Shown here piece after piece: positions 5,771 to 36,477 of a stretch of 36,477 bases of DNA (within the stretch, counting starts at the first letter, position 1; every line of letters begins with the position of its first letter). Location: the NCBI GenBank assembly GCA_024401305.1, contig JAKSLI010000033.1, positions 1-36,477 on the forward strand. The letters run 5' to 3'. The DNA is from Bacteroidaceae bacterium. GTDB taxonomy: Bacteria > Bacteroidota > Bacteroidia > Bacteroidales > Bacteroidaceae. The translations under genes were made by a program, and so were the position numbers. Below the pieces are notes generated by a model. The model was given only the letters and a program-made list of their open reading frames with translations. It was not told the DNA's origin and ran no database searches.

Positions 5771-5896
5771 TTCGAAGCGAGCTTCGAGGCTACAAAGTAC
5801 AGGCTACAGAGTACAGGCTACCATCCGGAAGGAAAGGCCCTTTAGTTTGTAGTCTGTAGCTTGTAGCCTCAACATTCGCATTTCGCGAATGTTGAA
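5771..5896. repeat. Composite inverted repeat element A (7-bp-unit class)
   Basis: Order along the plus strand: hairpin TCGAAGC-GA-GCTTCGA (5772-5787); five 7-bp units of type AGGCTAC/AGAGTAC (5787-5821); core CATCCGGAAGGAAA (5822-5835) followed by GGCCCTTTA; units GTTTGTA, GTCTGTA, GCTTGTA, GCCTC (5845-5870); second hairpin with an 11-bp stem TCAACATTCGC / GCGAATGTTGA (5869-5895). The two unit arms are roughly reverse complements. The element ends at the ATP-grasp stop codon (5897-5899) and lies in the mRNA between the ATP-grasp and esterase cistrons. Confidence 0.85.
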
Positions 5897-7093
5897 CTAT
5901 ATTCTGTCGTAAATATCAGCGAGGAAGTTGTCCTTTTCCTGCTCTGTACTGAACTGTGCGATGTAAGTCTGGTTGCCCATGGCAGGTGCGAGGGCGTCAG
6001 GCATACGGTCCCATTGCTTGAGGGCATAGCGGTATTTCTCCATCATTGCGTTGTGGTCGAGGCGATAAGTTACGCCATCACGACGGCCAGCGAATACGCA
6101 GTAGTAGTTTTCAGGAGTGTTAGGCTGGTTGCTCTTGTCGTAAGTAATCATGTCAGCCCAAATCTTATAGACGTCAACAGCATGTGCATAGTTGAGCATA
6201 TCAGGAGTGAAACCGCCACCAGGACGCATGTTTACTTCCAAGGCAACGAAGTCGCCCACATTGCCAAGACCACGGTGAGCGCGGTCGAGACGGAAGAACT
6301 CAAGATGAACGAAGCGGCTCTTTACGTTGAAAGCCTTAACAGTCTGGCGACCCCAGAAGCGGAGGTTCTCGTTCATCTCCTTCTCTACGTGATATACAGA
6401 GTCGAGATTGTTCTTCACGATGTCTGAGATAGAAGGAGGACAGATGCTCCAAGATTCGAAGAGAGGGTTGCCGTGAGAGTCGATGATGGCATCGTAGTCG
6501 CAGATGTTACCTGTTACATATTCCTCTATTACATAGTCGTTTACGTCGGCTACTGTGTTGAAGAAGTTCTCAAGCTCCTGGTCGTTGTTGATCTTGTAAG
6601 TGCCGTTGGCACCAACACCAACATCCGGTTTTGCGAAGATTGGATAGCCAGCCTCACCAGCAAACCACTTCACAGGATGGAAACCTTCGCTTGCCTTAAT
6701 CTGGCGAGCAGTACGGATACCGCCCTGAGCGTAGTATTTCTTCATCTCCGACTTCTCCTTGATGGCAGAAATCTGGTCGAGTTTCAAACCTGTGTTGATG
6801 TTGAAATCAGTGCGGAGGCGAGCGTCCTGCTCAAGCCAATATTCATTGTTTGACTCAAGCCAGTCGATGCGGCCGTGCTTCCAAGTGAAGAAAGCGCATG
6901 CACGATAAACCTCATCGTAGTTCTCGAGGCTTGACACCTTGAAGTATTCCGTGAGAGAGTTCTTGAGCTCTGGCTTGAGAGAGTCGTAATCCTGATCGCC
7001 GACGCCAAATACGCTGACGCCGTTGCCCTTCAATGCAGCGCAGAACTTCCACGCTGTGTCAGGGAAATTTGGGGAAATGTAAACGAAGTTCAT
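5897..7093 (-). CDS. ATP-grasp domain carboxylate-amine ligase, substrate unknown
   Basis: A 398-aa ATP-grasp enzyme. Visible features are an N-terminal Rossmann-like segment (YISPNFPDTAWKFCAAL), the ATP-binding lysine region FAKPDVGVGANGT (K155 and the glycine loop 159-165), the hinge acids VIEEYV (190-191), and the metal ligands HLEFF (E265) and ALEVNMRPGGG (E286, N288). Such enzymes join a carboxylate to an amine through an acyl phosphate. The specific substrate cannot be read from sequence. It lies between an S51-like peptidase and an esterase on the same strand. A 15-bp repeat unit (AATCTGTAAATTGTA) lies just upstream of its ATG. Confidence 0.9.
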   Translation of the reverse strand: MNFVYISPNFPDTAWKFCAALKGNGVSVFGVGDQDYDSLKPELKNSLTEYFKVSSLENYDEVYRACAFFTWKHGRIDWLESNNEYWLEQDARLRTDFNINTGLKLDQISAIKEKSEMKKYYAQGGIRTARQIKASEGFHPVKWFAGEAGYPIFAKPDVGVGANGTYKINNDQELENFFNTVADVNDYVIEEYVTGNICDYDAIIDSHGNPLFESWSICPPSISDIVKNNLDSVYHVEKEMNENLRFWGRQTVKAFNVKSRFVHLEFFRLDRAHRGLGNVGDFVALEVNMRPGGGFTPDMLNYAHAVDVYKIWADMITYDKSNQPNTPENYYCVFAGRRDGVTYRLDHNAMMEKYRYALKQWDRMPDALAPAMGNQTYIAQFSTEQEKDNFLADIYDRI

Positions 7094-7120
7094 AACTGTG
7101 AATTACAATTTACAGATTTA
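7094..7120 (-). repeat. Pre-start repeat unit upstream of the ATP-grasp gene
   Basis: Read on the minus strand this is TAAATCTGTAAATTGTAA followed by TTCACAGTT and the ATG. The same AATCYGTAAATTGTA unit occurs before aroQ, lolE and ruvB. Confidence 0.75.
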
Positions 7121-7147
7121 TCTGTTTAGTTTTTGTTTTACTAATTC

Positions 7148-7178
7148 GATTTAGTGTTTAGTGTTCAGTGTTTAGTGT
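7148..7178. repeat. Four 7-bp units (GTTTAGT), overrunning a gene end
   Basis: Units GTTTAGT, GTTCAGT, GTTTAGT, GTTTA in tandem. On the minus strand they encode the last codons and the TGA stop (7165-7167) of the S51-like peptidase. The same unit occurs four times at 18811-18838. Confidence 0.88.
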
Positions 7179-7917
7179 TTATAGCGCATAGCCTTCCGTT
7201 CTTGAGAAGCTTGCGCTCACCATCGGAGCAGACCTTGCGTTTCTTGCCCTTGTTCATGAGGTAAGCTTCACCGCGAAGTTCGGTTGTGCCATCCTTGATG
7301 ATGAAGAAAGAGCCGTCGTTGAGAAGGTAGATAGGGTGCTCCATGCTGTCTGCCTTGGCAATGTCGTTGATGATATGCTTGCCGGCAAGCACCATGTCCT
7401 TAAGAGTCTGGAGGTGTGGGAGAATGTTCACATCGGTGAGAGCTAGACCCTTGCGGTGATATTTGTACTTAGGGTCGAGCACTTCCTCGTCCATCTCTGG
7501 TGGTGAATAAACATTGTCTGCGCAGTTCATTGAACCGGCACTGATGGTAAGCAGTACGCCGTCGAAGTTCTTTATGCGCTGCTTGAGCTTTATCTGCTTG
7601 AGGAAGTCATTCTCTGTTGGCACATGTCCACCGCAGATGAAGATGAAGTTTGCTTCCTTCAACATTCGCTCAGCCTCAGATTCCGTGCGGCGGTCGAGCA
7701 CTTCATAGTGGTCGAAGGCGAGGTCTGCGTTCTCGAAACATTCGCGCACTTCCCATGCCATGCGGTCTGTTATCTCCACATCGTCAGGGAAGGATGAAAT
7801 CATAACACAGCGGATAGGGTGGGCGAGTGACGCCTTCAGTTCGTCGATGAGTCCGTTTGCGGGATTAAGTTCACCTGCCCAACCGAGAGTATGGCTACTT
7901 GTAAGATATAAAGTCAT
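7165..7917 (-). CDS. Peptidase S51 (PepE/cyanophycinase-like) family protein
   Basis: A 250-aa class I glutamine-amidotransferase-like protein of the S51 type. TISAGSMN gives the expected nucleophile Ser126 (compare SAGA in PepE), GGHVPTEN at 96-103 is the equivalent of the GGN oxyanion strand, and H168 is a candidate for the catalytic histidine. No signal peptide is seen. Known S51 enzymes remove Asp-X dipeptides or degrade cyanophycin, a polymer made by an ATP-grasp enzyme; here it stands directly before an ATP-grasp gene, which suggests a linked role, by inference. The final residues INTKH and the stop codon are encoded by the 7-bp repeat at 7148-7178, so the native C-terminus has been altered. 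Confidence 0.87.
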   Translation of the reverse strand: MTLYLTSSHTLGWAGELNPANGLIDELKASLAHPIRCVMISSFPDDVEITDRMAWEVRECFENADLAFDHYEVLDRRTESEAERMLKEANFIFICGGHVPTENDFLKQIKLKQRIKNFDGVLLTISAGSMNCADNVYSPPEMDEEVLDPKYKYHRKGLALTDVNILPHLQTLKDMVLAGKHIINDIAKADSMEHPIYLLNDGSFFIIKDGTTELRGEAYLMNKGKKRKVCSDGERKLLKNGRLCAINTKH

Positions 7918-7960
7918 TTTATTATTTACGATTTTTGATGTATGATGTATGATTGTGGCC

Positions 7961-8008
7961 AGTCTTTAGCCTTTAGATTTTAGCCTTTAGCCTCGAAGCT
8001 GCTTCGAA
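7961..8008. repeat. Half element B in the S51 mRNA leader
   Basis: 7-bp units AGTCTTT, AGCCTTT, AGATTTT, AGCCTTT and AGCCTC are followed by the palindrome TCGAAGCTGCTTCGA (7993-8007). On the minus-strand mRNA the hairpin would be within the first 20 bases of the transcript, followed by AGGCTAA units. A second 7-bp run (ATGTATG twice) lies at about 7936-7952. Confidence 0.8.
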
Positions 8009-8016
8009 TTATTGTG

Positions 8017-8024
8017 CAAAATTA
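8017..8024 (-). promoter_or_regulatory. -7 box for the S51/ATP-grasp/esterase cluster
   Basis: CAAAATTA on plus reads TAATTTTG on minus. The predicted transcript starts near 8010, giving a leader of about 93 bases that begins with hairpin half element B. Confidence 0.7.
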
Positions 8025-8141
8025 CGCATTTTTTGGCAAAAAAGATGAATTTTAGCGACCTAAAGAATACCAAATGGCGCGAAAACAAAGCATAAAATAA
8101 AAAATCTGAAGCTAAAATACACATTATTAAAATATAATTAC

Positions 8142-8149
8142 TAATTTTG
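8142..8149 (+). promoter_or_regulatory. -7 box for hflX (near-leaderless)
   Basis: TAATTTTG ends only 8 bases before the hflX ATG at 8158. With the usual 7-base distance to the start of transcription, the leader would be about two bases. Confidence 0.7.
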
Positions 8150-8157
8150 CATCGTAT

Positions 8158-9405
8158 ATGAAAGAATTTGTAATATCAGAAGTAAAGGCGGAAACTGCGA
8201 TTCTTGTGGGTTTGATTACACCGCAGCAGAACGAAGCCAAGACAAACGAATATCTCGACGAACTGGAGTTTCTTGCCGATACTGCCGGAGCCGTCACCGT
8301 GAAGCGTTTTACGCAGAAGGTGCAAGGTCCGAGCCAGGTAACGTATGTTGGTAAGGGAAAGCTTCAGGAGATAGCGCAGTATATTCGTGATGAAGAAGAG
8401 ATGGAGAGGGAAATCGGTATGGTAATCTTCGACGATGAACTTTCGGCTAAGCAGATACGCAACATAGAAGCTGAGCTGAAGGTAAAGATCCTTGACCGTA
8501 CATCACTCATTCTCGACATCTTTGCAATGCGTGCGCAGACATCCAACGCCAAGACACAGGTGGAACTCGCGCAGTATCGCTATATGCTCCCTCGCCTCCA
8601 GCGACTCTGGACTCACCTTGAGCGTCAGGGTGGTGGCTCTGGTTCCGGCGGCGGTAAAGGTTCGGTAGGTCTTCGTGGACCAGGTGAAACCCAGCTTGAA
8701 ATGGACCGCCGTATCATCCTTTCGCGCATGTCATTGCTCAAGGAACGACTTGCGGAAATCGATAAGCAGAAGACAACGCAGCGCAAGAACCGCGGTCGCC
8801 TTATCCGTGTGGCTCTTGTGGGCTATACAAACGTGGGCAAATCTACCATCATGAACCTGCTTTCGAAAAGCGATGTCTTTGCGGAGAACAAGCTCTTCGC
8901 AACGCTCGACACCACTGTCCGCAAGGTTGTCGTGGAGAATCTTCCGTTCCTTCTCGCTGACACTGTTGGCTTTATCCGCAAGCTTCCTACAGACCTAGTT
9001 GACTCTTTCAAGAGCACACTCGATGAGGTTCGCGAAGCAGACCTTCTCGTTCATGTGGTGGATATCTCACACCCGGACTTCGAAGACCAGATAAAGGTTG
9101 TTGACAAGACCCTCGCCGACCTTGGCTGTGCCGAGAAACCGCAGATGATAATCTTCAACAAGATCGACGCTTACACTTGGGAGGAGAAGGAAGAAGACGA
9201 CCTCACTCCTAAGACAAAGCGCAACATCACGCTCGAGGAACTCCAGCAGACATGGATGGCAAAGACTCCAAACTGCCTCTTCATATCTGCCCGCGAGAAG
9301 ACCAACATCCAGGAGATGCGCGACACCCTCTACACTACCGTCCGCCAGCTCCATGTGCAGAAGTATCCGTACAACGATTTCCTGTATGAGATAGACCCCC
9401 AATAG
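8158..9405 (+). CDS. hflX: GTPase HflX
   Basis: A 415-aa ribosome-associated GTPase that splits or rescues stalled 70S ribosomes. The N-terminal HflX domain includes VTYVGKGKLQEI near 61-72 and is followed by a glycine-rich linker (158-168, GGGSGSGGGKG). The G domain shows G1 GYTNVGKST (222-230), G3 DTVGFIRKLP, and G4 NKID. The ATG start is supported by the conserved N-terminus MKEFVISE. The -7 box at 8142 puts transcription start almost at the ATG. The stop codon TAG (9403-9405) overlaps the first bases of repeat element F. Confidence 0.97.
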   Translation: MKEFVISEVKAETAILVGLITPQQNEAKTNEYLDELEFLADTAGAVTVKRFTQKVQGPSQVTYVGKGKLQEIAQYIRDEEEMEREIGMVIFDDELSAKQIRNIEAELKVKILDRTSLILDIFAMRAQTSNAKTQVELAQYRYMLPRLQRLWTHLERQGGGSGSGGGKGSVGLRGPGETQLEMDRRIILSRMSLLKERLAEIDKQKTTQRKNRGRLIRVALVGYTNVGKSTIMNLLSKSDVFAENKLFATLDTTVRKVVVENLPFLLADTVGFIRKLPTDLVDSFKSTLDEVREADLLVHVVDISHPDFEDQIKVVDKTLADLGCAEKPQMIIFNKIDAYTWEEKEEDDLTPKTKRNITLEELQQTWMAKTPNCLFISAREKTNIQEMRDTLYTTVRQLHVQKYPYNDFLYEIDPQ

Positions 9406-9562
9406 ACCCCCTCTAACTCCCCCACAGGGGGGGAGGACTTCCCCGTCCTCAGAAGGTAATCATACTTCATACACCTGATAATTAATAACTTAAAACTGCT
9501 TTCACCCACCAAAGCATATAAAAATCTCCCTCCCTTAGGGGGAGGGTAGGGGTGGGGTTCCT
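9404..9562. repeat. Composite inverted repeat element F (C/G-rich class)
   Basis: Fills the gap from the hflX stop to the DUF4954 start. The left part begins AGACCCCCTCTAACTCCCCC and has its own hairpin CTCCCCC-ACA-GGGGGGGAG. The right part has hairpin CCCTCCC-TTA-GGGGGAGGG and ends GGGGTTCCT directly at the ATG. The left arm's reverse complement resembles the right arm. The centre (about 9450-9525) is AT-rich. Size and layout match elements J and K. Confidence 0.8.
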
Positions 9563-11293
9563 ATGTATCGCAGTCTAAACATTGATGAAATTGAGCAGTT
9601 GCAGCGACAGGGCTGTACTGCCGAGAACTGGAGAAGCATCACGGTTGCTGATGATTTCTCTCCAGAGTATGTTCGTGGCGTTGACTTCTACGGTGAAGTT
9701 TCGCTTGGTGCCTTTAACAAGGAAGTGGAAATCGCTCCTAACGTGAAGCGTCATTCTGGCGTATATCACTCGGCAATAGGCAATTATGAGATTGGCAACG
9801 ACTGTTACATCTCAAAGGTCGGCTTGCTTCAGAACACAGGCGAAGCGGAAGTGAAGACAAAGACCATTGCAGTCCTCAACGAGGCTGGCGACGGCAATAT
9901 CGTGGCTTTCAACGGACTGACAAGCAACATTGCCGCGCTGATGGTTTATTGCAACAAGCACAACAGCCAGGCTTACGAGAACCTCAAGAACCTTGTTCGC
10001 AACGAGACTCTCTCCATCAACGCTTCTTTCGGCAAGGTTGGTCATGACACTATCATCCACGACGTGAAGGAAATCATCAACTGTCAGATAGGTAACTACT
10101 GCGAGATCACTGGTGCTCAGCGTCTTACGGAATGTTCTATCGAAGGCTCCGGCGATGCAAACATCTACGTCGGAACAGGTGTTGTCATGGAAGACTGCAT
10201 TCTCGTGAACGGTGCTTCCGTGCTCAACAATGCTCTCCTTTCAAACTGCTTCATCGGCGAGGCTTGTACAATCTCCAACGGTTTCCAGGCAGAAAACTCA
10301 GTATTCTTCGCAAACTCTTACATGAGCAACGGCGAGGCTTGCGCTGCTTTCTGCGGTCCGTTCTCTGCTTCTCACCACAAGAGCACGCTGCTCATCGGTG
10401 TTGACATCTCGTTCTACAACGCAGGTTCTGCTACAAACTACTCAAACCACGCCTACAAGATTGGTCCTGTTCACTACGGAACCCTCGAGCGCGGCAGCAA
10501 GACAGCTAGCGGTGCGCACATCCTTCATCCTGCCAACATCGGTGCGTTCTCCATGTGCATGAACAAGATCTCCACACATCCTGACACAAGCAACCTTCCT
10601 TTCTCTTACCTCTTCGGCGATGGCAAGAAGACATACCTCGTGCCTGCCCGCAACCTCCTCACCCTCGGTACTTACCGCGACGTGAACAAATGGCCAAAGC
10701 GCGACAAGCGTGAGAGCAACTACAAGCGCTCCCTCATCAACTTCTCATGGCTCTCTCCATACGTTGTTGAGAAGATAGAGAAGGCCATCGACACCCTCGA
10801 GTATATCCAGAAGGAGTACGGCTACGACGTTGACGAGTACGAATACAACGGAACAATCATCCGTCGCGGTTCCCTCTTGCGCGGTCTTGAGATCTACCGT
10901 CAGGCACTTCTCATGTTCGTCCACATGAACAAGGAGAACATCACTACCGACTCTTACGAGCGCGAATACATCCAGCAGTGGCACGACCTCGGCGGTCTCC
11001 TCCTGCCAAAGGTTGACCTCGACAACATCATCGCCGGCTTGGAATACAACGACTACAAGTCTGTCGAGGTTCTTGAGACATCCCTTTCTGACGCATTCAA
11101 CTCTTACGGCACATACCTTGAGCAATATACGCTCTACATCATTGACAAGTACTTCGCTGATGTTGACACCCTCGACGAGGATGCAGAAGACGCTTACGCC
11201 GAGTGGATAGAAGCCATCAAGGCAGACGCCGCAAAGGAATATGCAATGGGCGATGTCGAGAAAGAAGCCTACGAAGGGCTGAAGATTGAATAG
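9563..11293 (+). CDS. DUF4954 family protein with left-handed beta-helix
   Basis: A 576-aa Bacteroidetes-type DUF4954 protein. The first half has repeated hexapeptide-like turns typical of a left-handed beta-helix (IGNYEIGNDCYI, IINCQIGNYCEI, TECSIEGSG, EDCILVNGASV). A conserved block SASHHKSTLLIGVDISFYNAGS lies near the middle; the C-terminal 180 residues are helical and acidic. Beta-helix proteins of this kind are often acyl- or nucleotidyl-transferases, but the activity of this family is not known to me. No signal peptide. The start at 9563 directly abuts element F, and element C begins three bases after the stop. Confidence 0.9.
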   Translation: MYRSLNIDEIEQLQRQGCTAENWRSITVADDFSPEYVRGVDFYGEVSLGAFNKEVEIAPNVKRHSGVYHSAIGNYEIGNDCYISKVGLLQNTGEAEVKTKTIAVLNEAGDGNIVAFNGLTSNIAALMVYCNKHNSQAYENLKNLVRNETLSINASFGKVGHDTIIHDVKEIINCQIGNYCEITGAQRLTECSIEGSGDANIYVGTGVVMEDCILVNGASVLNNALLSNCFIGEACTISNGFQAENSVFFANSYMSNGEACAAFCGPFSASHHKSTLLIGVDISFYNAGSATNYSNHAYKIGPVHYGTLERGSKTASGAHILHPANIGAFSMCMNKISTHPDTSNLPFSYLFGDGKKTYLVPARNLLTLGTYRDVNKWPKRDKRESNYKRSLINFSWLSPYVVEKIEKAIDTLEYIQKEYGYDVDEYEYNGTIIRRGSLLRGLEIYRQALLMFVHMNKENITTDSYEREYIQQWHDLGGLLLPKVDLDNIIAGLEYNDYKSVEVLETSLSDAFNSYGTYLEQYTLYIIDKYFADVDTLDEDAEDAYAEWIEAIKADAAKEYAMGDVEKEAYEGLKIE

Positions 11294-11295
11294 GG

Positions 11296-11409
11296 TTCGC
11301 GACTTGTCGCGAGGCTAAAAGCTAAAGGCTACAGAGTACAGGCTACCATTCGGATGGAAAGTCTGTAGTCTGTAGTTTGTAGCCTGTAGCCTCGAAGCAA
11401 CGCTTCGAA
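11296..11409. repeat. Composite inverted repeat element C (7-bp-unit class)
   Basis: Order: hairpin TCGCGAC-TT-GTCGCGA (11297-11312); units AGGCTAA, AAGCTAA, AGGCTAC, AGAGTAC, AGGCTAC (11312-11346); core CATTCGGATGGAAA (11347-11360); units GTCTGTA, GTCTGTA, GTTTGTA, GCCTGTA, GCCTC (11361-11393); hairpin TCGAAGC-AAC-GCTTCGA (11392-11408). Same plan as element A, with different hairpin sequences that keep pairing. Confidence 0.9.
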
Positions 11410-11480: not shown

Positions 11481-11843
11481 TTAGTCCTTCTTTGTGTTGA
11501 CACGCTTTTCAGCGATGCGAGCCTTCTTACCAGTGAGCTTGCGGAGGTAGTAGAGCTTAGCACGACGTACCTTACCACGCTTGTTTACTTCAATGCTGTC
11601 GATGCTTGGTGACTCGATAGGGAAGATACGCTCTACACCTACTGTACCTGACATCTTACGAACTGTGAAACGCTTCTTGTCACCATGACCAGAGATCTTG
11701 ATAACTACGCCACGATAGAGCTGGATACGCTCCTTAGAACCTTCGATAATCTTGTATGCCACTGTTACAGTGTCACCAGGACCGAAAGATGGGAACTCTT
11801 TGCCTGTAGCAAATGCTTCCTCAGCAACTTTGATTAAATCCAT
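11481..11843 (-). CDS. rplS: 50S ribosomal protein L19
   Basis: A 120-aa L19 homologue. Family blocks are [53 protein letters not shown] (positions about 57-79) and [16 protein letters not shown]. It sits at the 30S-50S interface. The gene is transcribed alone from a TAATTTTG box at 11935-11942, leaving a leader of about 85 bases. Length is normal for the family with a short basic tail. Confidence 0.98.
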
Positions 11844-11857
11844 TTTATTATATGAGT

Positions 11858-11914
11858 TTAGAGAGTTGAGTGTCCCTTAGCGCAACATAGATAGGCAACA
11901 CTTCTTCCTTCCAT
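11858..11914 (-). CDS. Possible upstream ORF in the rplS leader (18 codons)
   Basis: Within the predicted rplS leader, an ATG at 11914 opens an 18-codon frame ([18 protein letters not shown]) that stops 14 bases before the rplS start. It has two adjacent cysteine codons. A frame this short arises often by chance, so it is only a candidate leader peptide. Confidence 0.2.
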
Positions 11915-18803: not shown

Positions 18804-18810
18804 AGAAAAA

Positions 18811-18838
18811 CACTAAACACTAAACACTAAACACTAAA
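18811..18838. repeat. Tandem CACTAAA repeat, 4 perfect copies
   Basis: Four exact 7-bp units lie between the two divergent -7 boxes (ansA at 18796-18803, uxaC at 18847-18854). The reverse complement unit GTTTAGT is the same as at 7148-7178. Confidence 0.95.
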
Positions 18839-18846
18839 TTTTTTCA

Positions 18847-34203: not shown

Positions 34204-35073
34204 ATGAAACTAAACATTATTGTGCTTGCAAAGCAAGTGCCGGACACAAGAAATGTTGGCAAGGACGCTATGACAGCGGAAGGCACTATCAACCGTGCCG
34301 CTCTTCCAGCAATCTTCAATCCGGAAGACTTGAACGCGCTCGAACAGGCGCTTCGTCTTAAAGAACAGAATCCAGGCTCTACAGTGGGTATATTGACAAT
34401 GGGCCCTCCACGCGCTGCAGAGATTATTCGTCAGGGTCTTTATCGTGGTGCCGATACTGGTTGGCTTCTTACTGACCGTCTCTTCGCCGGCGCCGACACT
34501 CTCGCTACTTCTTACGCCCTCGCTACAGCCATCAAGAAGATTGGCAATGTAGATGTTGTCATCGGTGGTCGTCAGGCTATCGACGGTGATACTGCGCAGG
34601 TAGGTCCACAGGTAGCTCAGAAGCTCGGTCTTTCTCAGGTAACTTATGCTGAGGAAATCGAGAAGTGCGAAGATGGCAAGCTCACTATCCGTCGTCACAT
34701 CGATGGTGGTATCGAACTCGTTGAGGCTCCAATGCCTATCGTAATCACTGTAAATGGTTCTGCTGCTCCTTGCCGTCCTTGCAACGCAAAGCTCGTCATG
34801 AAGTACAAGCGTGCAAATGTGCCTCTCGAGCGCACAGAGGATATGCCATACAAGGAGCTCTACGAAGAGCGCCCATACCTCACACTCAACCAGTGGAGCG
34901 TAGCTGACGTTGATGGCGACCCAGCACAGTGCGGTCTCTCAGGCTCACCTACTAAGGTTAAGGCTATCAAGAACATCGTATTCCAGGCTAAGGAGAGCAA
35001 GACTCTCACTGGCTCTGACGAGGATCTCAATAGCTTCATCAAGGAACTCCTCGACGAGAAGATTATCGGATAA
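34204..35073 (+). CDS. etfB: Electron transfer flavoprotein, beta subunit
   Basis: A 289-aa EtfB. Family blocks: VLAKQVPDT (8-16), NPEDLNALEQALRL, the AMP/FAD-proximal DVVIGGRQAIDGDTAQVGPQ (near 118-137) and YKRANVPLERTEDM. With EtfA it carries electrons between acyl-CoA dehydrogenases and the quinone pool or, in bifurcating forms, ferredoxin; the GRQAIDGDTAQVGP type resembles forms in anaerobes. The leader has half element E and an upstream phased-repeat site. Co-operonic with etfA, with element J between. Confidence 0.96.
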   Translation: MKLNIIVLAKQVPDTRNVGKDAMTAEGTINRAALPAIFNPEDLNALEQALRLKEQNPGSTVGILTMGPPRAAEIIRQGLYRGADTGWLLTDRLFAGADTLATSYALATAIKKIGNVDVVIGGRQAIDGDTAQVGPQVAQKLGLSQVTYAEEIEKCEDGKLTIRRHIDGGIELVEAPMPIVITVNGSAAPCRPCNAKLVMKYKRANVPLERTEDMPYKELYEERPYLTLNQWSVADVDGDPAQCGLSGSPTKVKAIKNIVFQAKESKTLTGSDEDLNSFIKELLDEKIIG

Positions 35074-35074
35074 A

Positions 35075-35233
35075 AGACCTTCCCCCTTCCCCTTCCTTCT
35101 TGGACGGGGAGAGATTACATAAGGGGGCAGAACTCTTACCCATATCAATAGTATAAATCATAAAACTCTAATTCCCCAAAGAGCAAAACATTTACTCCCC
35201 CGTCCTGAAAGGAAGGGGTTAGGGGAAGGTCCT
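35075..35233. repeat. Composite inverted repeat element J (etfB-etfA gap)
   Basis: 159 bases filling the gap. The left arm starts AGACCTTCCCCCTTCCCC and runs through CCTTCCTTCTTGGACGGGG; the right arm (35195-35233) has CTCCCCCGTCCTGAAAGG, AAGGGGTTAGGGG and ends AAGGTCCT at the ATG. The arms are close to reverse complements over about 38 bases. The AT-rich centre contains ATAAAACTCTAATTCCCC, shared with element K. Confidence 0.93.
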
Positions 35234-36256
35234 ATGAACAACGTATTTGTATATATAGAAATCGAAGGCACACAGGTTGCCGAAGTTTCTCAAGAGCTTC
35301 TGACCAAGGGTCGCAAGCTCGCCAATACTCTCGGCGTACAGCTCCACGCTGTTGTTGCCGGCACAGACATCAAGGGCAAGGTGGAGAGCCAGATTCTCCC
35401 TTATGGCGTTGACAAGCTCTTCTGCTTCGACGGTCCTGCACTCTTCCCTTACACATCAGCACCTCACACTTCAATCCTCGTGAACCTCTTCAAGGAAGAA
35501 GAGCCACAGATCTGTCTCATGGGTGCTACAGTTATCGGCCGTGATCTCGGTCCTCGCGTTTCTTCTTCTCTTACAAGCGGTCTTACTGCCGACTGTACAG
35601 AGCTTGAGATTGGTGAGTACGACGAGAAGAAGTCTGGCAAGCACTGGGATCAGCTCCTCTATCAGATCCGTCCTGCTTTCGGTGGTAACATCGTTGCTAC
35701 TATCGTAAACCCAGAGCACCGTCCACAGATGGCTACAGTTCGTTCTGGCGTTATGCAGCGCGAGATTCTCGACGAGAACTACAAGGGCGAGGTTGTTTAC
35801 CCAGACGTAACAAAATATACTTCTGCTGAAGACTATATCGTAAAGGTTCTCGAGCGTCACGTTGAGGCTGCTAAGCACAACCTCAAGGGTGCTCCAATCG
35901 TTGTAGCTGGTGGTTACGGCGTTGGCTCAAAGGAGAACTTCGACATGCTCTTCCAGCTCGCCAAGGAACTCCACGGTGAGGTTGGTGGTAGCCGCGCAGC
36001 AGTAGATGCTGGTTGGGTTGACCACGATCGTCAGATTGGTCAGACAGGTGTCACTGTTCACCCAAAGGTTTACTTCGCAGTAGGTATCTCTGGCCAGATC
36101 CAGCACATCGCAGGTATGCAGGATTCAGGCATCATCGTTTCAATCAACAACGACCCTAACGCTCCAATCAACAAGATTGCTGACTACGTTATCGTCGGCG
36201 ACTGCGAAGAGGTAGTTCCAAAGCTCATTAAGTATTACAAGCAGAATAATAAGTAA
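35234..36256 (+). CDS. etfA: Electron transfer flavoprotein, alpha subunit
   Basis: A 340-aa EtfA. The N-terminal half has the beta-like fold (VAEVSQELLTKGRKLANTLG; MGATVIGRDLGPRVSSSLTS). The C-terminal FAD domain has VVAGGYGVGSKENFDMLFQL, GGSRAAVDAGW (near 252-262), the GQTG motif QIGQTGVTVHPKVYFAVGIS and SINNDPNAPINKIADYVIVG. The ATG abuts element J, which ends AAGGTCCT; the right arm AAGGAAGGGG would also serve as a purine-rich upstream region. Confidence 0.96.
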   Translation: MNNVFVYIEIEGTQVAEVSQELLTKGRKLANTLGVQLHAVVAGTDIKGKVESQILPYGVDKLFCFDGPALFPYTSAPHTSILVNLFKEEEPQICLMGATVIGRDLGPRVSSSLTSGLTADCTELEIGEYDEKKSGKHWDQLLYQIRPAFGGNIVATIVNPEHRPQMATVRSGVMQREILDENYKGEVVYPDVTKYTSAEDYIVKVLERHVEAAKHNLKGAPIVVAGGYGVGSKENFDMLFQLAKELHGEVGGSRAAVDAGWVDHDRQIGQTGVTVHPKVYFAVGISGQIQHIAGMQDSGIIVSINNDPNAPINKIADYVIVGDCEEVVPKLIKYYKQNNK

Positions 36257-36416
36257 AGACCTTCCCCCTTACCCCTTCCTTTCAGGACGGGGAGAGAATA
36301 CATTAAGGGGCAAATATCTTTATCTTACCTATAGTATAAATTATAAAACTCTAATTCCCCTAAGAGAAGAACATATTATTCCCCGTCCTGAAAGGAAGGG
36401 GTTAGGGGAAGGTCCT
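36257..36416. repeat. Composite inverted repeat element K (after etfA)
   Basis: 160 bases, clearly homologous to element J in arms and centre (shared AGACCTTCCCCCTT, GTATAAAT, ATAAAACTCTAATTCCCC, GTCCTGAAAGGAAGGGG, TTAGGGGAAGGTCCT). It runs exactly from the etfA stop to the next ATG. Confidence 0.93.
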
Positions 36417-36477
36417 ATGATTAATCCATCAATAGAATTCCACCTTCATCACCCATTGATGAAGCGTATCGTTGACC
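36417..36477 (+). CDS. Start of a gene, probably acyl-CoA dehydrogenase (partial)
   Basis: Only 20 codons are in the window. The N-terminus INPSIEFHLHHPLMKRIVD resembles the start of the acyl-CoA dehydrogenase that follows etfBA in other Bacteroidales, as I recall it. Position in the operon supports this. The ATG follows element K directly. Confidence 0.5.
   Translation, partial: MINPSIEFHLHHPLMKRIVD

Follow-up and report, generated by a model that had tools for sequence, protein, structure and literature searches.

Palindromic elements in Rickettsia are inserted in frame within protein genes. Repetitive extragenic palindromic (REP) sequences, REP doublets forming hairpins (REPINs) and bacterial interspersed mosaic elements (BIMEs) occur, as far as the accessible text of three reports describes them, in many copies that are mostly intergenic and lineage-specific (PMC3116915, PMC3733652, PMC6006769), and contain palindromic half-units in inverted pairs that are able to form a single long hairpin. 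According to the accessible text of two further reports, the BrickBuilt miniature inverted-repeat transposable elements (MITEs) of Porphyromonas gingivalis, in the Bacteroidales, are intergenic and combine a tandem repeat with inverted-repeat ends (PMC4596501), and the TAACTGA heptamers of Beggiatoaceae, Cyanobacteria and some Bacteroidetes are intergenic tandem 7-bp words with a patchy distribution across lineages, some relatives having shorter, repeat-free intergenic regions (PMC4679880). Two elements, here called A and C, resemble these intergenic systems in part. They lie 5.4 kb apart in a stretch of 36,477 nucleotides from a Bacteroidaceae bacterium (assembly GCA_024401305.1, contig JAKSLI010000033.1), referred to below as the window. 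We tentatively favour the interpretation, which may well be correct, that A and C are copies of non-autonomous, REPIN/BIME-like mobile palindromes with conserved folding. If so, they exemplify an abundant kind of bacterial palindromic repeat, conserved in its structure and its central 12-mer and free in most other respects.

Read from the outside inwards, A and C each consist of a 7–11 bp hairpin, four heptads with a partial fifth, and a near-palindromic core, followed by the mirror image of these parts; the hairpins and cores are given without strand. Element A opens with an outer hairpin on the stem TCGAAGC/GCTTCGA (5772..5787), continues on the plus strand with the heptads GGCTACA AAGTACA GGCTACA GAGTACA plus GGCTA (5788..5820), and reaches the core CCATCCGGAAGG (5821..5832), which has one mismatch to the 12-bp palindrome CCATCCGGATGG. 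Its right arm reads GGCTACA AGCTACA GACTACA AACTAAA on the minus strand (5841..5868) and is closed by an outer hairpin with an 11-bp stem, TCAACATTCGC (5869..5895). The corresponding parts of element C are a left hairpin with the stem TCGCGAC/GTCGCGA (11297..11312), the plus-strand heptads GGCTAAA AGCTAAA GGCTACA GAGTACA plus GGCTA (11313..11345), the core CCATTCGGATGG, also with one mismatch (11346..11357), the minus-strand heptads GGCTACA GGCTACA AACTACA GACTACA (11364..11391), and a right hairpin with the stem TCGAAGC/GCTTCGA (11392..11408). A sequence-only reading of the window had placed one common layout at these two positions, and the anatomy bears this out, except that its five 7-bp units amount to four complete heptads with the fifth only partial. 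It had also put an edge of each element within three bases of a stop codon, as is the case: the stop codon of the minus-strand gene 5897-7093 starts (in plus-strand coordinates) at 5897, one base from the right hairpin of A, and the left hairpin of C follows 3 nt after a stop codon ending at 11293.

Both elements fold strongly. The stretches 5771-5890 and 11300-11409, which as folded omit a few bases of the outer hairpins, gave z-scores of -6.1 to -7.7, better than 200 of 200 dinucleotide shuffles, on both strands, and a shorter piece of A gave -5.1. An Rfam scan of the window at gathering scores returned a tRNA as its sole match and no curated RNA family at A or C.

The elements belong to a large family in this genome. 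The heptad pattern GGSTAMARGSTAMARRSTAMARGC, allowing one mismatch, has 262 matches in the 3.2 Mb genome, overlapping matches included, and the sequence CATYCGGNNGGAAA has 9; the reversed control gave 0 for each. Further elements were sought in a 417 kb sample made up of the window and 20 stretches from five contigs, each chosen for holding a CATYCGGNNGGAAA match, so that core frequencies taken from it are biased. Five core matches (A, C, L145, L148 and L142) were known beforehand; those at L146:16040 and L155 were not. A regular-expression scan of the sample found 30 heptad arrays, with 11 facing pairs among them. The core stands in the centre of 6 of the 11 pairs at up to two mismatches and of 8 at up to three, and it is present with 0-1 mismatch in all five pairs whose centre is no longer than 25 nt; in three long-centred pairs the core match is no better than in shuffles. 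A covariance model built from seven elements recovered 12 distinct elements at E <=1e-5 in the sample, 5 of which had been used in the model and 7 had not. Extrapolating from the pattern and model counts, we estimate the copy number in this species to be of the order of a hundred. The family that the sequence-only reading had proposed therefore exists: these 12 elements and 262 pattern matches take it well past A and C alone. The copies are numerous and mostly extragenic, as in REP/REPIN families. One-mismatch core matches number 52 in the genome against 6 in the control, many of them plainly coding; they were not counted as elements.

The arms of a single element are often different variants; L145, for example, has an AAA-type left arm and an ACA-type right arm. 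Other arm types in this genome are GAGTAAT, a AATTAGAG type and a C-rich palindrome. A nested element at L154:16185-16410 has outer GGCTAAA-type words and inner GAGTAAT-type words with intermediates between them.

Outer hairpins mostly keep their pairing while their sequences differ. At 19 of the 30 array ends the first heptad adjoins a perfect stem of 6 bp or more, compared with a mean of 0.4 and a maximum of 2 in 200 shuffles, and 14 distinct outer stems are found among the array ends. When the 3' hairpin arms were swapped among ends, only 3.0 ends paired on average instead of 19, and never more than 10 in 2000 swaps. The seven-element alignment predicts 28 arm and core pairs, 6 of which changed on both sides. 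Because the left stem of A and the right stem of C are identical, exchange of modules is part of this pattern. As in REP/REPIN sequences, inverted pairs of palindromic units are present that can fold together.

The conserved part is the centre, and the same core recurs between unrelated words in other genomes, neither of which the sequence-only reading had foreseen. Exact CCATCCGGATGG is present in 51 of 149 genomes of the order, this genome included, and more than five copies occur only in this genome (15, against 0 in its control) and in G198 (18); for a random 12-mer we calculate an expectation of ~0.2-0.3 per genome. Among 13 genomes reached via named relatives, exact cores number 94 in G210, 75 in G211, 10 in G212, 2 in G208 and 1 in G219, and the other 8 have none. 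The arm words in the core-rich genomes are the 7-bp AAAAATG/AAGAATG, GAATAGT, AAAAGTC and GAATTAT, the 9-bp GATTACACG, and longer ones. The left and right arms around a core match each other better than arms swapped among cores, with scores of 15.8 versus 8.7 in this genome (10 cores), 29.2 versus 17.4 in G198 (13 cores), 21.0 versus 12.5 in G210 (30 cores) and 16.9 versus 10.4 in G211 (19 cores). Not every core has matching arms, since a score of at least 15 is reached by only part of them: 4/10, 12/13, 21/30 and 9/19, respectively.

A covariance model with base pairs, built on the heptads of this genome, was searched against 62 loci of G198, G210 and G211 together with 13 protein-fetched relatives. 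It found 82 matches at E up to 1 on both strands (best 2.6e-11) in other species' loci, while the same model without base pairs found 11 (best E 0.008). As the paired model far outperforms the unpaired one, it is pairing and core, not words, that these genomes have in common. Core sites in G198, G210 and G211 had been found by the exact core, except L061/L063, which came from a protein search, and L061 and L063 are the only protein-fetched relatives with model matches. The matches across species represent a shared design and are not proof of common descent, because a long stem alone scores and most loci were core-selected. In the order-wide search for CCATCCGGATGG, no mirror arms were seen by eye at the 29 loci from other genomes among 30 examined; the 30th is from this genome, a C-rich palindrome inside a gene. 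CATYCGGNNGGAAA has matches in 21 of 39 relatives, and no mirror arms were seen at 27 of 28 loci from them, all but L026, that were examined around the match. In 10 stretches of viral contigs holding a 17-letter word, no two-armed element was found around the core within ~140 bases of each; some of these stretches carry other GGCTAAA/GGCTGAA-like arrays.

The presence of the elements is specific to the lineage. No match to the heptad pattern, at the same mismatch limit, was found in 59 other genomes of the genus, and the closest named relative, G208, has 9 matches on three contigs. One of these three contigs (L256, G208:C8) is 98% identical over the 3 kb compared to this genome (L225, G000:C41), whereas identity at the G208 A-locus contig is ~80%; from this difference we take at least L256 to be probably foreign to the G208 bin. 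Of 13 relatives, 12 (L059-L069, L071) keep the gene pair around A without an element, the two genes being separated by -4 to 29 nt, compared with a 140-nt intergenic gap in the window; the 13th (L070) has another neighbour gene at this junction. The empty sites are too diverged to show target duplication. The two genes next to C are not adjacent in G208, and neither has an element there: another open frame, by eye miaA-like, begins no more than a few nucleotides after the first, and the second retains a terminator-like hairpin.

Palindromes bearing the core are also found within genes. C-rich examples lie in frame in this genome, sometimes more than one per gene, in an FAD-dependent protein (L226:1965-2045), an ArsP-type permease with an HMA domain (L227:1965-2050) and a kinase/RapZ-C/nucleotidyltransferase fusion (L152:10190-10260 and 11790-11860). 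The Pfam domains are still recognised, and the in-frame palindromes fit insertion. The core was rejected as a coding motif, HPDG, since the reading frame differs among the coding inserts. By eye, a similar C-rich piece lacking the exact core lies in a glucosidase-like gene (L160:2260-2300).

If the elements are mobile palindromes, the unit would be a half-element made of an outer hairpin, about four heptads and half a core, and two such halves would face each other and meet in a palindromic core close to CCATCCGGATGG. In single-stranded form, whether DNA or RNA, the whole could fold into a long stem with the core at its tip and a small hairpin on either side. Copies may spread by transposition in trans of this folded single-stranded form, as is thought for REPINs; the machinery or the host would then need the folding rather than the sequence, and recognition would fall on the core. 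The strongest candidate for the enzyme, though unproven, is a Y1 (HUH) transposase.

The same structures could instead serve the host as RNA at gene ends, in 3'-end protection, operon tuning or two-way termination, with stems changing by compensatory drift, although we consider this rather unlikely. The strong folding on both strands agrees with such a role, as do the neighbours of 16 elements: by crude longest-open-reading-frame gene calls and hand-set element ends, 11 lie between codirectional genes, 2 between convergent and 1 between divergent ones, the other 2 being unassigned. In this genome a T-run (at least 5 T in 8 bases, no more than 12 nt beyond the stem) follows 5 of 19 outer hairpins, compared with a frequency of 0.08 at random, mostly coding, positions, and several 9-bp-word elements of G198 and G210 have an A-run before the stem and a T-run after it, as in bidirectional terminators. 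The right hairpin of A and the hairpin of a half-element, B, are among the terminator-like calls, from a scan that totals 7 sites against 7.2 in shuffles. The T-run test scored at cores gave 0 of 8; three of these eight, however, belong to C-rich palindromes within genes, and in A the end that was scored lies too far out. As T-runs stand at the hairpins themselves in those 5 cases, the case against a terminator role is weaker, and such a role is possible for some elements but is not general. Yet the other 14 hairpins have no T-run, C adjoins another hairpin of terminator-like form, which is retained in the relative although C is absent there, and the genes flanking A are nearly contiguous in relatives; nor would a host role explain one core among unrelated words or core palindromes in coding genes. 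It is doubtful, too, that the elements maintain themselves by mutation alone, with slippage making the heptads and template switching between arms during replication keeping them complementary, and no function or transposase involved. Template switching is able to create and fix stems, according to the accessible text of PMC8794818, the hairpins are often perfect yet diverse, and words grade into one another within single arrays (GGGTAAA, GACTAAA, GGCTAAA and GAGTAAT at L154:16220). In nine elements the share of mirrored words is slightly above that obtained with right arms swapped among elements (0.40 versus 0.32, p 0.08), but the order of words in one arm does not mirror that in the other more than composition predicts (14 of 35 words versus 12.2 expected, p 0.29). 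This last result speaks against recent templated copying of whole arms, and the "templated formation" suggested by the sequence-only reading finds no significant support. Nor does mutation alone account for a core shared by distant genomes, for spread over many sites within one species, or for the lack of elements at orthologous sites.

The sister species G210 and G211, with 91-94% alignment identity in the compared stretches, bear on a further possibility: that the core is a cutting or recombination site. An enzyme would cut CCATCCGGATGG, and both arms would be rewritten as the break is repaired from other copies, with further pieces admitted between two cores. We regard this as improbable. 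Six orthologous core sites are comparable; four others in the same stretches, at L272:4886, L272:8462, L277:6799 and L281:3045, fall outside the partner stretch or lack a syntenic flank. One of the six (L281:5223) is present in G210 only. At three of the six (L273/L294, L277/L290, L281:15338/L345) both arms have switched between AAAAATG and GAATAGT while core, place and flanks are kept. L061/L063 have the same arm words in both species, and L272:11699/L293 also share words, one species having in addition a hairpin insert together with a partial second core. Elsewhere in G210 and G211, cores bracket unrelated pieces of 32, 157 and 268 bp, the whole lying between word arms (L257:1500-1681, L269:1500-1792, L302:4043-4099). 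The enzyme is still hypothetical, however, inserts between two cores could equally be neighbouring elements, and the core is often imperfect in this genome. Gradual homogenisation is also possible, because AAAAATG and GAATAGT differ at only two of seven positions and the L293 array contains both. That CCATCCGGATGG is a transferable "hub", on which a putative Bacteroidales enzyme acts and rewrites both arms together, is a long shot; any short tandem word beside the core would then become mirrored, and species would come to have different arm "dialects" around a core that stays in place. Sister genomes with different dialects at shared sites make stem change, whether by compensation, copying or replacement, directly testable, together with whether a core-binding enzyme drives it. 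Chance or assembly artefact has practically no likelihood. Most of the compared genomes are drafts or metagenome bins and at least one G208 contig looks foreign, but the control counts (0 versus 262 heptad matches, 0 versus 15 core sites) refute it, and the two core-rich genomes with names come from different isolates and have accessions of their own.

Several observations count against our preferred interpretation of A and C as mobile palindromes. The concerted arm change at three of six sites is not explained by plain insertion, and this is the point that it handles worst. No transposition event was observed, and no target duplication was seen at the one clean gain/loss site, that of a related, core-less word palindrome of 148 bp (L061:7253) that is cleanly absent from G211; the clean gain or loss itself speaks for mobility. 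Five of the 11 facing pairs have the core only at three or more mismatches. The claim of the sequence-only reading that hairpin sequence changes while pairing stays agrees with the swapping result above but not with all ends: 11 of the 30 have no perfect 6-bp stem at that place, although at some of them (L146:16066, L149:6100, L156) a hairpin lies farther outside, by one or two words, and two L144 arrays look like chance coding matches. The RNAalifold covariation term of the seven-element alignment, in which the outer hairpins are badly aligned, is likewise unfavourable (+1.2). The centre is conserved and the ends vary, the reverse of REPINs. This genome, which is 86% complete, has two Y1 (PF01797) proteins, and the 3.2 kb loci of their genes contain neither core nor words nor inverted repeats of at least 11 bp. 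Y1 matches are found in 13 of the 15 genomes tested, whether rich or poor in cores.

A Y1 transposase as the shared cause was rejected on that distribution and because the two Y1 genes of this genome are unflanked; the wide occurrence of Y1 matches makes these enzymes candidates rather than demonstrated agents. In G211, a Y1 gene of 152 aa (L238:1141-2140) has half-core units on both sides, three upstream and, oppositely oriented, two downstream; each of them adjoins a GTGCTACGCAC hairpin, an arrangement that favours the mobile reading. A Y1 53% identical to it in G212 (L309:4231-5420) is flanked by an inverted hairpin array, AGAGCCCCAAAGGGGCG, without the core. By its motif alone, YIRNQEKHH, this Y1 resembles subclass 1.2 of PMC6006769, in which, as described in the accessible text of that report, typical terminal structures are generally missing. 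One RVT_1 reverse transcriptase gene is present in the genome of the window.

Other repeats accompany A and C in the window. Element B, a half-element on the minus strand between them (7921..8007) that is absent from the sequence-only reading, has GGCTAAA heptads and the hairpin TCGAAG/CTTCGA at 7993-8007, with GGCCA in place of the core and different words (ATACATC) on the other side; its covariance-model match is weak (E 0.008). TTTAGTG heptad arrays without a core, 97% mutual reverse complements, lie 11.6 kb apart at 7149-7180 and 18808-18839. Two 184-nt copies that are 79% identical (35054-35237 and 36237-36420) have long inverted C/G-rich arms and are perhaps another palindromic repeat family.

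The in-frame C-rich palindromes of this genome are comparable to the Rickettsia palindromic elements, whereas A and C consist of heptads and lie between genes. Of the MITE hallmarks, terminal inverted repeats and target-site duplication, inverted arms are present, and no duplication was seen at the single clean gain/loss site, that of a core-less palindrome. Judged by titles and the openings of abstracts, searches of open-licence literature on the core sequence, on palindromic or heptamer repeats of Prevotella and Bacteroidales, on RAYT transposases in Bacteroidetes, on BIMEs, BrickBuilt and Rickettsia elements and on template switching turned up no such layout; the core sequence led to one paper, a mannosidase study. 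BrickBuilt elements have a 23-bp tandem unit between leader and tail, and the accessible text does not describe mirror arms about a core (PMC4596501). The TAACTGA repeats are direct repeats of one fixed word, mostly just before start codons in the type genome, and neither a palindromic core nor outer hairpins are described in the accessible text (PMC4679880); A and C do not belong to this type, as their words vary and run in both orientations about the core. REPINs and REPs differ from the elements described here in that the arms here are tandem 7- or 9-bp words, a RAYT gene (REP-associated tyrosine transposase) flanked by repeats in the same genome is not found beside the repeats here, and no constant GTAG tag marks the hairpin foot, from which the unpaired REP tag, GTAG or CGTC, would stand 0-2 nt away: GGCTACA, which places GTAG two nucleotides from the stem on the other strand, is outermost at only 10 of 30 array ends, and other heptads come first at the rest. 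At the same time, the mixed arms of the A/C type have a parallel in REPs, for which the accessible text of PMC3733652 describes hybrid dimers of different units.

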